Positions 30,302 through 36,580 of a stretch of 64,000 bases of DNA are shown here, in pieces. Source of the DNA: Lobosporangium transversale (taxonomy: Eukaryota; Mortierellomycota; Mortierellomycetes; Mortierellales; Mortierellaceae); NCBI RefSeq assembly GCF_002105155.1, contig NW_019028987.1:798501-862500 (forward strand), in the 5' to 3' direction. Within the stretch, counting starts at the first letter, position 1; each line of letters starts with the position of its first letter. The notes below the pieces were generated by a model. It was not told where the DNA came from and made no database searches. It was given only the letters and a program-made list of their open reading frames with translations. The translations under genes and the position numbers were made by a program.

Positions 30302-31264
30302 TTACAAAGCGAGGCGAAGCACAGAAAAATACGTGTCCTCCTGCTTGGTACGGCTATTATCAGGGAATGGGACTCTCTCACCATAATCCACGAACCCAAG
30401 CTTCTTATACCACCTGATCAATTCCTCGCGCATGTAAAGAACATATACCACACATTGGGTACGATTCATTTGCTCTTTTGCATATTTCAATGAGGTCTCG
30501 ACTAGTTTTCGACCGATACCTCGAGATTGCTGTGTAGGATCAACAGAAAAAAGTCCGAGGAAAACTTGTTGTTCTTTGGGTAATCTTTCAGTATAGGGCG
30601 ACACGTAGCCATCCTTGGTGTACACGCCAAAATCAGGAAAATGCTCCACAGCTTCGAGTTGAATAGTTCCGAGAGGTTGACCTGATTCGGAATCGAAAGC
30701 GAGAAATAATGGGTTGATCTTATCAACAAGGACTTCTTTCAGTTCATCAATCGGGATACGCTCGTCACGGACTAAAAATATGAAATATGCAAAGAAAAAA
30801 ATTTAGGGAATCAAAAAGAAAACAAAATAAATAAATAAATAAAAAAAAGCATTATAACGGATCACTTACTCAAATGTGCCTCTGTCGTCCATCCGCCCTC
30901 TAGAAAGATTGTATTTTTACATTTACGTATAAAAAGAAGATCATTTAGTATCTCACCAAAGGTGCATAGTGTTTGATCCCCAGAACAATGTCGCTCACAA
31001 GCTGACAGAGCAGTTTAATTGACAGCTGTGATGCACACTAACGGAAAGTTTGGTCATGCTACAAGGCCGCTATTAACTGTCATTGCTATAGCTGGTTTGA
31101 AGCTGATGAGCTTTTTTTTATTCACCTGATCTGTATGCGCGGTTGATGACAGAATGAATGAGGTCGATTTGACTGATGTCTTCAGCAATGGCTCGACGGA
31201 CAGTGACTGTGGTCTTCTTCTCTGGACGAGATGAATGTGAAGAAGCCGAAGGAGAAGAAGTCAT
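30302..31264 (-). CDS. GNAT-family N-acetyltransferase
   Basis: Three exons (31264-31126, 30899-30870, 30771-30302) give 212 residues; the middle exon is only 30 nt. After a Ser-rich start the fold begins TVTVRRAIAEDISQIDLIH. The central strand reads FLGLFSVDPTQQSRGIGRKL, with the acetyl-CoA pyrophosphate-binding QSRGIG loop, and the C-terminal strands contain RWYKKLGFVDYGERVPFP. The substrate (a small molecule amine or a protein N-terminus) cannot be inferred. Predicted soluble. Confidence 0.85.
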
Positions 31265-31587: not shown

Positions 31588-33857
31588 ATGAGGTCATTCC
31601 AGGCACAAGTCAAGCAGGAGGACAATGGGACCCGAGTCTGGAAATTCGTGCTCGCACAATGGAAGACCGTTGTCAAGTCTCGAGAACAGATGCGTCGATG
31701 CTTTAAACGAGGCGAGGTACATGATCTTATCACTGTGACTCCGTTCTCTCTTCTGTCCACAAACAAAAAGTGAGCTAAGATAATTCACATTGTACTCTAT
31801 AATATTATTGATGCTGGCTAGGTGTCTGTCAATGGCGTAGTTGCGGAAGTAACTAGGATCCTTGTAACAGGCGATCTGGTCCAAATCAAATTTGATGCTC
31901 AGGCTGCACATGAGTCCGTCTATGGGAAAGAAAAACTTGAGATCTGCTATGAAGATAATGATCTCGCAGTAATCATCAAGCCCTCGGGAAAAACAATGGT
32001 TGCTGTGGGATTTATGTTGCCCTTCTCACTCACTCCGAGTATTAATGCTGAGCCAGGAAATGGAGAGGAGAAGATGGATGAAAATAAAAGCCAGCTCAAG
32101 ATGGACGCAACTTCGACAGTACTGCTTGAACTTGACAAGCAAGGCACATCTCCAACCTCAAATGAAGATGAGTGGACTTCTCCGGAGCATGATCTCGGAC
32201 AAGAGAATGAGCTTAGTGATGATGATAGCGACGAGTTCGCTGCATTTGATGTACCTTCCAACATTTCGCCAACTCTTGGGCAACAGAATTGCCTCCCATG
32301 TGCAATCCATGGGGTTGAAAAGGCTTCAAACGGACTTGTAAGTGTGCTCATAGTGAATTTATGTTTTTTTAAGCGCTCCAAAGAAGTGTTTCCTCTTTGG
32401 GACTAAAGCTTTGTTGTTGACTCTACTTTTTGTTATGCCGATATAGGTTCTTATTGCAAAGACTGCAGAGATGCGCTCAACGCTTATGCAGATGCACAAC
32501 AGCGGCAAAATCACCAGAACTTTCAGGGTCATATGTCATGGAGGTTGGTCACGAGATGGGGCTCAGGAAATAGAAAATGATATGCAGCATCCTCTCGTTT
32601 ATGATGAAGGAAGTATGATTCCTGTGAATCCTGGATTTTTAGATGCAAAGTGTATAGAGTCTATACGTGTTGTTAAAGTGACTCCATCCAACGAAGCAGG
32701 AAGTCTCTCTACTCTGGATGTCGTGCTACGGTCGCCATTTTTGGGTGTCAATGTACGTCGGTACCTCATGTCCGCACACCATCCTGTTATAGGAGACAGC
32801 GGCAATACAAAACCTCTCAAAGCAAATCGCAACAAAGGCCTGCTATCATGCCTTGCCAAGGTAGAATTTATCCATCCTAATCTCAACATTCCCATCACTG
32901 TCCATTTGGAGGAGCCAGTCAAATTTGAGCAGCTGAGGATACGTGAGCAAAAGGCGTGTCTACGTCGTCAGGCGAATGACCTGGCGGAACTCAAAAAAGG
33001 GGGTTTGGAACTTACACAAACATATAGTCGTGCTTCCGAGTTACCTATCGCATATCTGGTGGGCGAGAAGGTCGGTTCACTTTTAATTTTTGATCTGATC
33101 TACAGATGAGTGTTTTCTTGTGATGCCTCGCTGACTTTTACACATTACACATTTACTCAATGTTAATGATGCTTGCAAACAGGATTTTTGTGATATGCGG
33201 TTCAAAGTATCACCATCGACGTTAATCCCCCGCGCCAGCACAGAAACACTTGTTCATACTGCCATCTCACTTGCAAAGGATCGATCGATCAAAATCCTTG
33301 ATGTGGGGACAGGAAGCGGCTGTTTGCTATTGGCTTTGCTAAAGAACCTTCCTACATCTATTGGAGTTGGTATAGATATCAGCCAAGAGGCACTCGAAAT
33401 AGCCCAAATCAACTGTCAAATGCATGGCCTGACAAATCGAGCTTTATTCGAGATAGGGGATCTTGGACAGCTGGATAGCACTCCTAGTCTTTTCAAATCA
33501 TTTGATCTCCTTGTGTGTAACCCACCTTACTTGGATAGCAGTAAAGCAGAAAAGCTGAAGAAACTATTTGATGGCACGGAGCATGAACCACCAATAGCCC
33601 TATTTGCAAGTAGTGAAGGCTATGGAGCATATGAACTATTGGCTGCAAGCTTGTTCCGCAACCTTTGCACTCCTGCTGAGCGCCGTGTTATGGCCGATGG
33701 AGCGCACGTCATCCTAGAAATTGGCAGTGGAATGGGCCAACGTGTCCGGGAATTATTCAAGTTTTTACGTTTTGTAGAATCATTTAGGGACAAGCAAGAC
33801 TCTGAGCGATGCCTTGTGTTTGCGCTACCAGAGGCTAGGCCTGTAGATTATCAATAA
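31588..33857 (+). CDS. Fusion protein: S4 domain + degenerate RluA-like pseudouridine synthase + PrmC/HemK-like methyltransferase
   Basis: Four exons (31588-31716, 31822-32337, 32447-33070, 33183-33857) give 647 residues. Residues ~12-65 look like an S4 RNA-binding domain (MRRCFKRGEVSVNG, GDLVQIK). Residues ~75-395 follow the RluA fold: DNDLAVIIKPSGK, IHGVEKASNGLVLIAKT, HHPVIGDSG, a long acidic insert (110-195), then FEQLR. The family's catalytic HRLDxxTSG is HGVEKASNG here, so the essential Asp is replaced by Glu and activity is doubtful. Residues ~408-647 match PrmC: FKVSPSTLIPRASTETL, LDVGTGSG, and the catalytic NPPY at 536-539. PrmC methylates the GGQ glutamine of release factors. The joins are ordinary in-phase introns. 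Location and activity are inferred, not shown. Confidence 0.8.
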
Positions 33858-33879: not shown

Positions 33880-34468
33880 TTATTGCTGTTTTTTAACGTT
33901 AATCGGGGGTCGAGAGCTTTGAGAATCTTCCAAAACAGCGGCGACTACATATGCAAAAAGGACCACATTGGCCATCACTGCAGCACTGATACCAGCATAC
34001 GTCGTGTTGCCTAAAGTTATTTCAACATATTGTAGTTTAAAATGATCTGATGTTTAGGGAAGATGGACAGGCCAGTTTTTGAAATTGGTTTTTTTTTTTT
34101 TTTATTTTTTTTATAGCACACGCCAAAAGGCTACCAAACATACCATCAAAGTACCGGTCCACACTGATAAAGTAAGTTCCTATAGGAAAAAAAATCATGG
34201 CTACGGTGAAGAAGGCGAGCTTAACAAGGGTCGACCTAGATATAGATTGAGGTAAAATGAAGATATCAGTTGAGTTAATGCTTGCAACATCTTGCAGATC
34301 TCTATTTTTTTTTTTACTGTAGAAATAGCAATAGTAAAAATGGTTGGAAGGTTACGTAGACACGGCTGGGGAGGTTGAGCGCACTGGTGTCGACGACGAC
34401 GAGTCGGATGAGCTGAATGGCGTTTGCTGTGCTGTGGCGGATGCGGATGCTTTCCCTTTAGAAGACAT
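33880..34468 (-). CDS. VMA21: V-ATPase assembly factor Vma21
   Basis: Three exons (34468-34356, 34235-34144, 34010-33880) give 111 residues. A Ser/Thr-rich cytosolic N-terminus is followed by two transmembrane helices, STLVKLAFFTVAMIFFPIG and the one beginning NTTYAGISAAVMANVVLF. The protein ends VKKQQ, a KKXX dilysine signal for return to the ER, as in the yeast protein. Vma21 chaperones V0 assembly in the ER, including subunit c'' (VMA16 at 0.6-1.8 kb). The family is too short and divergent for most ORF finders. It converges with the S4-PrmC fusion gene, with only about 22 bp between the stop codons. Confidence 0.9.
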
Positions 34469-34666: not shown

Positions 34667-36580
34667 ATGGTCAATCCTCGTGTCTTTTTTGACATCGACA
34701 TCGATGGTCACCGGATTGGAAGGCATGTTACTGCCTTTGATTTAGAACTGACATTGCAACAACTTGTCGTATTTTATAGGCATATTGACACTCTCTCAAC
34801 TTTACTTTTCCTCATTCTTCTAGGATCGTCATGGAGTTGTTTGCGGATGAGGTGCCACGTACTGCAGAGAATTTCCGTGCACTTTGCACTGGTAAGAAGT
34901 CAAAGGATTTAGTTCGTTATGCAGTGATCAAGGAAGTATCCAAACAATGATCAGCTAACTGTGTATCCACACTTTTATTTTCAATTTTAGGTGAAAAAGG
35001 TGTAAGTAAAACTAGCAGCGTACCCCTACACTACCGAGGTTCTATCTTTCATCGGTACGAAGCACTCAAGTTTGTGAAACAAGTGAGTGAATAATGATGA
35101 TTATTAACTTGGTTAAAAAAGTTCATATTCTTACTACCATTGTCTTGTTTGACCATTGTAGTGTTATCAAGGGCTTTATGGTTCAAGGAGGAGGCAAGTG
35201 AGACCATTGAATTGGGACGCCTTTACAAGTCAGCTTCAACATTAGCCCACTGTTTGTATGATCGCCATGGATATGGATTACTTACTATACTATACTATTC
35301 ATTCATGCTCAATTAACAACAGACTTTATCAGGAGGGATGGATCAGGAGGCGAGAGTATTTATGGTGGGCCAATGCCAGATGAAGGAGGCTTCAAGCGAA
35401 AGCATGATATTGAAGGTATGTTGCACAACAATCAAATATTTCGCCATGTGTTGTTTGCAGTAAGCGAGAACTCGATGTAATTATCACTAATTCTTTATAA
35501 TGCTTTTTTTTTTTTTTTTTTTTTTTTTAAATTGTGTAGGACTCTTATCGATGGCAAACAAAGGACCCAATTCCTCCACCTCTCAATTTTTCTTGACCAC
35601 TCGACCAACTCCTCATTTAGATGGTATGTTTGAGCGGCTTTCGGTTCTGTATATGAACCATATAGTTTATCGTGGCCTAGTCTCAGTGGATTAATTTCTA
35701 AACATGTTTTCGCCCCCTTCATGAATAGGGAAGCATGTTGTTTTCGGACGTGTTGTAAAAGGTTATGACGTGGTCGAGAAAATTGAAAACACGCCCACGG
35801 ATGAAAGAAACGATAGACCGCTGAGCATCGTCATGATCTCCAATTGCGGCGAGCTTGAACTAAGGATACCACCAAAGCTACTAGAACAGCAACGACAACA
35901 GCAGGTAGCGGCAGCAGCAGAGAAAACGCAAGGAAGTACTTCTAAAGATGACAGAAGTCGTGGTAGCGACAACGACAGCGATAGTGATAGTGACAGCAAT
36001 AGCGACAGCGACAGTGATAGTCATTCTGTATCTCGAAAACGCCGACAGAGACGCCGAAGCCGCCACAACCGCTCAAAGTCAAGGAGCAGCAGTGAGTCTA
36101 ACTCCGATAGACATAGCTCTCGTCGAAGAGATCGTTCTTCCAGACACAGGAGGAAGCATGAGCGTTCGTCTCGAAGGACTCGCAGTCGTAGTGACAGCCG
36201 TAGTCCTAGTCGCAGCCGCAATAGTCGTCACACCAGGCGTCGTTCCCGCTCTGGCTCTAGATCGCCCCGCTTAAAAAACGAAGTGCGCAAGCAAGAATCG
36301 AGGGCTGAACCTGAAAATCGTCAAACCAATAATGCCAATGACGATGCTCGCTATTCTGAACGTCGACATGAGGCTGTGCGTCCACATCCAAGAACACGCT
36401 CGCGCTCACCTGAAGTCAAGTATAAAGGACGAGGATTGATGGTATGCAAAGGAAGGAAAATTGGAAGGAAAATGGGTTACTGTGCCACTTCAAGAAATTA
36501 CCATCTAACCTTAAATGCTCTATTATTTTTCTGCGTTGCTTTTCACATTGGATTAGAAATACCGCGAAAAATATCGGTAG
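34667..36580 (+). CDS. RS-rich nuclear cyclophilin (PPIase), CypG-like
   Basis: Eight exons (34667-34722, 34824-34891, 34991-35054, 35162-35193, 35323-35415, 35540-35623, 35729-36441, 36557-36580) give 377 residues. The N-terminal ~175 residues are a cyclophilin: [47 protein letters not shown], and [14 protein letters not shown]; key catalytic residues appear intact. The rest is an Arg/Ser domain with RSRSxSR blocks, ending GRGLMKYREKYR. This architecture is typical of spliceosome-associated cyclophilins (PPIG/SRCyp). Introns 1 and 4 need GC donors (AAG|GCATGT and GAG|GCAAGT) to keep the cyclophilin frame. The last coding exon is only 24 nt. Confidence 0.9.

Follow-up and report, generated by a model that had tools for sequence, protein, structure and literature searches.

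Can a single fungal gene join an S4 domain, a pseudouridine synthase and a PrmC-type methyltransferase in one polypeptide, and if so, what might such a protein do? The question was raised by a locus in Lobosporangium transversale, whose assembly (42.7 Mb in 127 contigs) we examined. The locus lies in a stretch of 64,000 nucleotides on contig 117 (NW_019028987.1, positions 798,501–862,500), here called the window. A prediction made from the letters alone, referred to below as the original prediction, had described a four-exon gene encoding this combination, with a dead synthase that, together with S4, may tether the methyltransferase to the site of translation termination. The analysis shows that the fusion is a conserved family and not a single odd gene, and that it is under-reported.

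A splice-site script, in which GT or GC donors and AG acceptors were tried near the expected borders, yielded a four-exon gene on the plus strand at window positions 31588–33857, with GT–AG introns and phase-0 joins throughout, encoding 647 amino acids. Three open models were found among the tried donor/acceptor pairs; the other two use later intron 2 donors and are 2 and 5 residues longer. We chose the exon set matching the public protein P0001 (L. transversale BX616_006796), to which the 647-residue product is identical over its full span; the coordinates and reading frame given originally for one protein thus hold. Splicing is needed, since read-through of any of the three introns meets an in-frame stop. 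The gene is made up as follows:

31588–31716, plus strand: exon 1, residues 1–43; start codon and first half of S4; donor GTACAT
31717–31821, plus strand: intron 1, phase 0, within S4; in-frame stop on read-through
31822–32337, plus strand: exon 2, residues 44–215; remaining S4, start of the RluA fold, acidic disordered loop, HGVEKASNG
32338–32446, plus strand: intron 2, phase 0, within the RluA fold; donor GTAAGT; in-frame stop on read-through
32447–33070, plus strand: exon 3, residues 216–423; TRTFRVICHG, GVNVRRYL, HPVIGD, linking helix (373–399), start of PrmC (PIAYLVGEK)
33071–33182, plus strand: intron 3, phase 0, within the PrmC domain; weak donor GTCGGT; in-frame stop on read-through
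33183–33857, plus strand: exon 4, residues 424–647; S-adenosylmethionine (SAM)-binding LDVGTGSG, NPPY motif VCNPPYL, stop codon

Profile matches and an AlphaFold2 model agreed on the predicted combination, ordered from the N- to the C-terminus as S4, an RluD/RluC-like pseudouridine synthase, a long connecting helix and a PrmC/HemK methyltransferase with NPPY. The front half has the RluA fold and S4 domain expected of an RluA-family synthase; it was matched by TIGR00005 (RluA_subfam) at E 4.5e-14 and 52.4 bits, short of the cut-off of 192.7, with the best stretch at residues 13–99, and by PseudoU_synth_2 at E 6e-5, under the curated cut-off. The rear half was matched by TIGR03534 (PrmC) over residues 406–634 (E 1e-51, 175.8 bits, below the cut-off of 199.1) and by TIGR00536 (hemK_fam) with 131.4 bits, above its cut-off of 115.5. 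The AlphaFold2 model, with a predicted local distance difference test score (pLDDT) of 86, matched both RluD and PrmC, and the best fold match of the methyltransferase half was E. coli PrmC (2b3t). Residues 125–193 had a pLDDT below 50. A single long helix at 373–399 occupies the place where PrmC_N (PF17827) would be, and a profile search listed no PrmC_N at E ≤ 1 for the L. transversale protein or for six orthologs.

Protein database searches returned 185 proteins, of which 72 were family members: 42 from Mortierellomycota, six from Glomeromycota, five each from Neocallimastigomycota and Chytridiomycota, two from Kickxellomycota, one each from Mucoromycota and Entomophthoromycota, and 10 without an organism name. 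Phyla were assigned by organism name, except for P0029, P0090 and P0091, which were placed by close similarity; lineages were checked for nine species covering all seven phyla, and the other members presumably belong where their genus names put them. Some rows are partial (P0039–P0042, P0095, P0099 and P0103; also P0048, P0117, P0119, P0167, P0171 and P0179, in which the Asp region discussed below is uncovered). NCBIfam scans of 19 members, with listing limits of E 1, 1e-5 or 1e-4 depending on the batch, listed PrmC for all 19 and RluA_subfam for 16, the latter not being listed for P0048, P0100 and P0103. A profile of the family's RluA half matched all 72 members, a partly circular result because the profile was built from members, and the RluA half of the sole Entomophthoromycota member is supported by the family alignment only. 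The original prediction had suggested looking for the domain order across Mucoromycota; its spread goes beyond these, to seven fungal phyla. As the original prediction had surmised, we found no description of an S4–RluD–PrmC family, or of any protein with this order, in the literature searched. In a genome scan of prokaryotes, all of the best 80 loci had a PrmC-like open reading frame (ORF) and none of them had both halves in one ORF. Alphaproteobacteria accounted for 63 of these 80, a share that may be biased, as one of the two scan patterns required CNPPY.

The state of the synthase half was followed at columns numbered on E. coli RluD (Asp139, Tyr171, Arg237). HGVEKASNG does occupy the position of HRLDxxTSG, as had been quoted, and the catalytic Asp of that motif is Glu in the L. 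transversale protein. At this column, Mortierellomycota have Glu in 38 of 42 rows, with three gaps and one Ile (P0023, an apparent misalignment); Glomeromycota have Gln in four and Pro in two; the Mucoromycota member has Gln; and Kickxellomycota and Entomophthoromycota, pooled in the tally as Zoopagomycota, have Glu in 3/3. Asp is present in all five Neocallimastigomycota and in four of five Chytridiomycota, with Ser in Entophlyctis, while the nameless members show Asp, Glu, Ala and Pro once each and are uncovered in six cases. Over the 72 rows, the column holds Asp in 10 and another residue in 53, and is unaligned in nine; the Asp is replaced in 49/49 aligned rows from terrestrial fungi (three gaps) and kept in 9/10 from chytrids or Neocallimastigomycota. 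Tyr171 is Phe in 35 of 42 Mortierellomycota, Tyr in all five Neocallimastigomycota and Tyr (two), Trp (two) or His (one) in chytrids. The segment at the THQIRVHM position of RluD, which had been called eroded, does read GVNVRRYL but is not erased, as the HQIR Arg (Arg237) is kept in 42/42 Mortierellomycota; it is Lys in four of six Glomeromycota.

Replacement of the Asp in the terrestrial rows and its retention in those from chytrids and Neocallimastigomycota make it probable that the fusion came first and the decay of the synthase half later. The description of a dead synthase holds for terrestrial fungi; the Asp-bearing orthologs, which the original prediction had itself named as refuting evidence, suggest that the domain was not dead at the outset. 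Only P0097 and P0108 among the 72 members retain the Arg of HRLD, so that the forms with the Asp, too, may have a weak or altered activity. TIGR00005 gave the Asp-bearing Anaeromyces protein 108.0 bits, against 52.4 for that of L. transversale, with neither at the cut-off. When the motif was masked and a tree was built from 32 RluA halves, the 17 terrestrial rows formed one clade (support 97/94), and four changes of the Asp state were needed over the whole tree, compared with a mean of 9.4 for shuffled labels; six rows were long-branched. The simplest reading of this tree is one loss of the Asp at the base of the terrestrial fungi, with separate losses elsewhere.

In the nameless P0047, P0048, P0102, P0108, P0117, P0119, P0167, P0171, P0176 and P0179, the fusion is present either whole or in its later part; most of those included in trees branch away from the named fungi, so these proteins may come from eukaryotes other than fungi. 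In P0108 the Asp is retained, within the motif YRLDKCMYG. Polychytrium aggregatum has two entries, P0098 and P0099, both with the Asp, the P0099 model being without the S4 part. The Entophlyctis luteolus model P0101 has an additional PF04045 region at its C-terminus, which may stem from an adjacent gene merged with it.

Loss of the Asp was not accompanied by a general relaxation of the sequence. Conservation, taken as the mean share of the most frequent residue among 37 Mortierellomycota rows, was 0.76 for S4, 0.80, 0.74 and 0.73 for the RluA parts and 0.76 for the methyltransferase, falling to 0.28 and 0.34 in two variable loops of the RluA half (residues 119–195 and 251–283). Outside the loops the shares are similar, so that the RluA half is as strongly conserved as the methyltransferase half. 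The first loop (window 32047–32277) is acidic, with a net charge of −17 in L. transversale; it was found in 37/37 measured Mortierellomycota rows, with 37–77 residues and a net charge of −9 to −22, and its position in five other rows compared holds 1–7 residues. This acidic, disordered and fast-changing loop sits near the dead Asp site and could act as an RNA mimic or a cleft inhibitor.

The methyltransferase half has its motifs in nearly all members: NPPY, preceded by Cys or Ser, in 70/72 (absent in P0042 and P0103), and a DxGTG-type SAM motif in 69/72 (absent in P0039, P0042 and P0054), the four exceptions looking like partial or faulty models. A paper on HEMK1 (PMC8904536) reports that the residue before NPPY is small, Ser or Gly, in PrmC, HEMK1 and Mtq1, whereas Mtq2 and HEMK2 carry Phe there. 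The fusion, with VCNPPYL, has the small residue of the PrmC type; it has Cys where Mtq2 and HEMK2 have Phe, and scores 22 bits with TIGR00537 against a cut-off of 87. The TIGR03534 equivalog cut-off was reached neither by the L. transversale protein nor by any of the 18 orthologs scanned. Among controls, Dictyostelium P0104 (226.8) and Pythium P0106 (203) passed and the Mortierella-type Mtq1 P0083 (161.3) failed, so that failure does not exclude PrmC function.

The L. transversale genome has other genes of this kind. Contig 69 contains an Mtq1-like gene (TIGR03534, E 7.6e-33), to which Linnemannia P0083 was a close relative in a quick tree, and contig 13 a partial Mtq2-like exon (TIGR00537, E 3.1e-10, 40 bits, below the cut-off) with FNPPYV. 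Because of these separate genes, the fusion looks like a third HemK-family member. A bootstrapped tree of 62 rows placed 17 fusion rows in one clade (100/99) and three fungal Mtq1 rows in another (100/97), without resolving the deeper order. In the quick tree, 32 fusion rows formed one clade (99), beside Dictyostelium HemK and a nameless row (82). Both halves form single clades among the sampled rows, in trees without eukaryotic stand-alone RluA proteins.

Judging from sequence and modelled structure, we tentatively propose that the fusion is an RNA- or ribosome-docked PrmC-type protein-glutamine methyltransferase with a substrate beyond mitochondrial RF1 and eRF1, whether in place of these two or besides them, a proposal to which we give somewhat less than an even chance. 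The ancestor would have been bifunctional. In terrestrial fungi the synthase half would survive to bind RNA, probably rRNA of the large subunit or a precursor of the ribosome, and would bring the methyltransferase close to its substrate, which is most probably a glutamine of some translation protein beyond, or besides, the two factors named. The protein would probably act in the cytosol or nucleus. The fusion is retained in Neocallimastigomycota, whose hydrogenosomes are not known to have a genome, and this persistence may point to the same compartments; a review (PMC9026988) describes loss of part or all of the hydrogenosome genome. The release-factor tether of the original prediction is plausible in outline and partly supported, by the single protein, a dead-looking yet conserved RluA half and an intact NPPY. 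However, given the separate Mtq1-like and Mtq2-like genes, the fusion need not be invoked to account for mitochondrial or cytosolic release-factor methylation, and its substrate is probably not simply the factors served by Mtq1 and Mtq2. The link to termination gains some outside support, because in E. coli K-12 the same RF2 variant eases the defects of prmC loss and of rluD loss, according to PMC5373646.

Against this link stands a published observation: in E. coli lacking ten 23S-modification enzymes, catalytically dead RluC did not help ribosome assembly and worsened growth (PMC11194073). Controls weaken some other points. The failed cut-off, the missing PrmC_N and the missing presequence do not singly separate the fusion from fungal Mtq1, because P0083 behaves alike in each: P0083 shows PrmC_N only below threshold, as does the Mtq1-like exon of this genome, which makes this a weak test in fungi, and a presequence is neither visible in the fusion nor clear by eye in P0083. 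What does separate the fusion from fungal Mtq1 is its S4–RluD half and its own clade.

A rival reading makes the fusion a second mitochondrial release-factor methyltransferase that overlaps Mtq1 or methylates other mitochondrial GGQ proteins, those of the ICT1/C12orf65 type; its RluD-like half would then bind the mitochondrial 21S rRNA. The small PrmC-type residue before NPPY speaks for it. Mammalian HEMK1 methylates four mitochondrial GGQ proteins, according to PMC8904536. The alphaproteobacterial share of the prokaryotic loci is as mitochondrial ancestry would give, subject to the CNPPY-pattern bias, and Dictyostelium HemK is among the nearest rows in the quick tree, although the bootstrapped tree does not settle that placement. 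We nevertheless consider this reading unlikely: an Mtq1-like gene is present elsewhere in the genome, and the fusion is kept in Neocallimastigomycota, which are not known to have mitochondrial translation. That no presequence is visible counts little, the Mtq1 comparator being without one too. A further rival, in which the RluD-like half guides methylation of RNA, such as at an N6-adenine of rRNA, is also unlikely, as the methyltransferase half is far closer to PrmC in sequence (E 1e-38, and 1e-51 with TIGR03534) and groups with PrmC proteins, in trees that included no RNA methylase.

A role mainly in ribosome assembly, with neither activity mattering, has a precedent in mt-LAF3 (6yxx/7aoi), which matched by sequence (E ~1e-4) and fold, and a further fold match, 7bl5, is RluD on a pre-50S particle. 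With the SAM motif and NPPY kept in nearly all members, however, the methyltransferase seems to be under selection, and we regard such a role as improbable. As to an annotation that merged two neighbouring genes, the donor of intron 3 is weak, and the family does seem to include merged models, P0005 being joined to a cyclophilin and P0101 to PF04045. Yet all three introns lie inside domains (after residues 43, 215 and 423, in S4, the synthase fold and the PrmC domain, respectively) and none at a border between domains, the same order recurs in the genomes of fungi from seven phyla, each half forms a single clade in the trees made, and the AlphaFold2 model matches RluD and PrmC. A merged model is therefore very unlikely, so much so that we give it next to no credence.

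A bolder version of the docked-methyltransferase proposal is that an ancient eukaryotic enzyme coupled rRNA pseudouridylation with glutamine methylation of a factor working at that ribosomal site, as a third HemK system, cytosolic, beside Mtq1 and Mtq2, and that land fungi silenced the first activity and kept that half as an address label; we consider this version doubtful. In it, the Asp-bearing chytrid and Asp-less land forms would be natural before-and-after versions. More generally, the fusion would give fungal translation a third HemK-family methyltransferase with a substrate of its own, and would allow the conversion of an RNA-modifying enzyme into a targeting module to be traced. Because release factor 2 connects the two parent activities in E. 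coli, the fusion suggests a shared site of action.

The gene is flanked upstream by a GNAT acetyltransferase exon on the minus strand (window 30305–30802; PF00583, E 1.5e-9), with which it may share a divergent promoter. Downstream are VMA21-like exons on the minus strand (33883–34351; PF09446, just below the cut-off) and a cyclophilin exon on the plus strand (34789–34947; PF00160). In the public model P0005, from Mortierella sp. 14UC, the fusion and a cyclophilin are merged into one, a hint that this neighbourhood is conserved. The searches also returned proteins of ~590 residues (P0109, P0112–P0163 and similar) with PF07136 and PrmC-type domains, the named ones from Clostridium or Clostridia; PrmC therefore has other fusion partners in bacteria.

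Among known systems, TlyA-type proteins resemble the fusion in combining an S4 RNA-binding domain with a class I methyltransferase, but theirs is an FtsJ-type RNA methyltransferase and they are not known to have an RluA domain. The trypanosome mt-LAF3, found on large-subunit assembly intermediates of the mitoribosome, shares the pseudouridine-synthase fold; it is mitochondrial, belongs to another eukaryote group and showed no PrmC match. PrmC/HemK and HEMK1/Mtq1 share with the fusion the methyltransferase fold, the SAM motif and NPPY with a small residue before it, whereas the fusion has the S4 and RluD-like front, no detected PrmC_N and a clade apart from fungal Mtq1. RluD and RluC share the order of S4 and RluA fold, the family profile matching RluD over positions 5–307 (E 3e-22); the fusion differs from them in having Glu for Asp, mostly Phe for Tyr171 in Mortierellomycota, an acidic loop insert and an attached methyltransferase.
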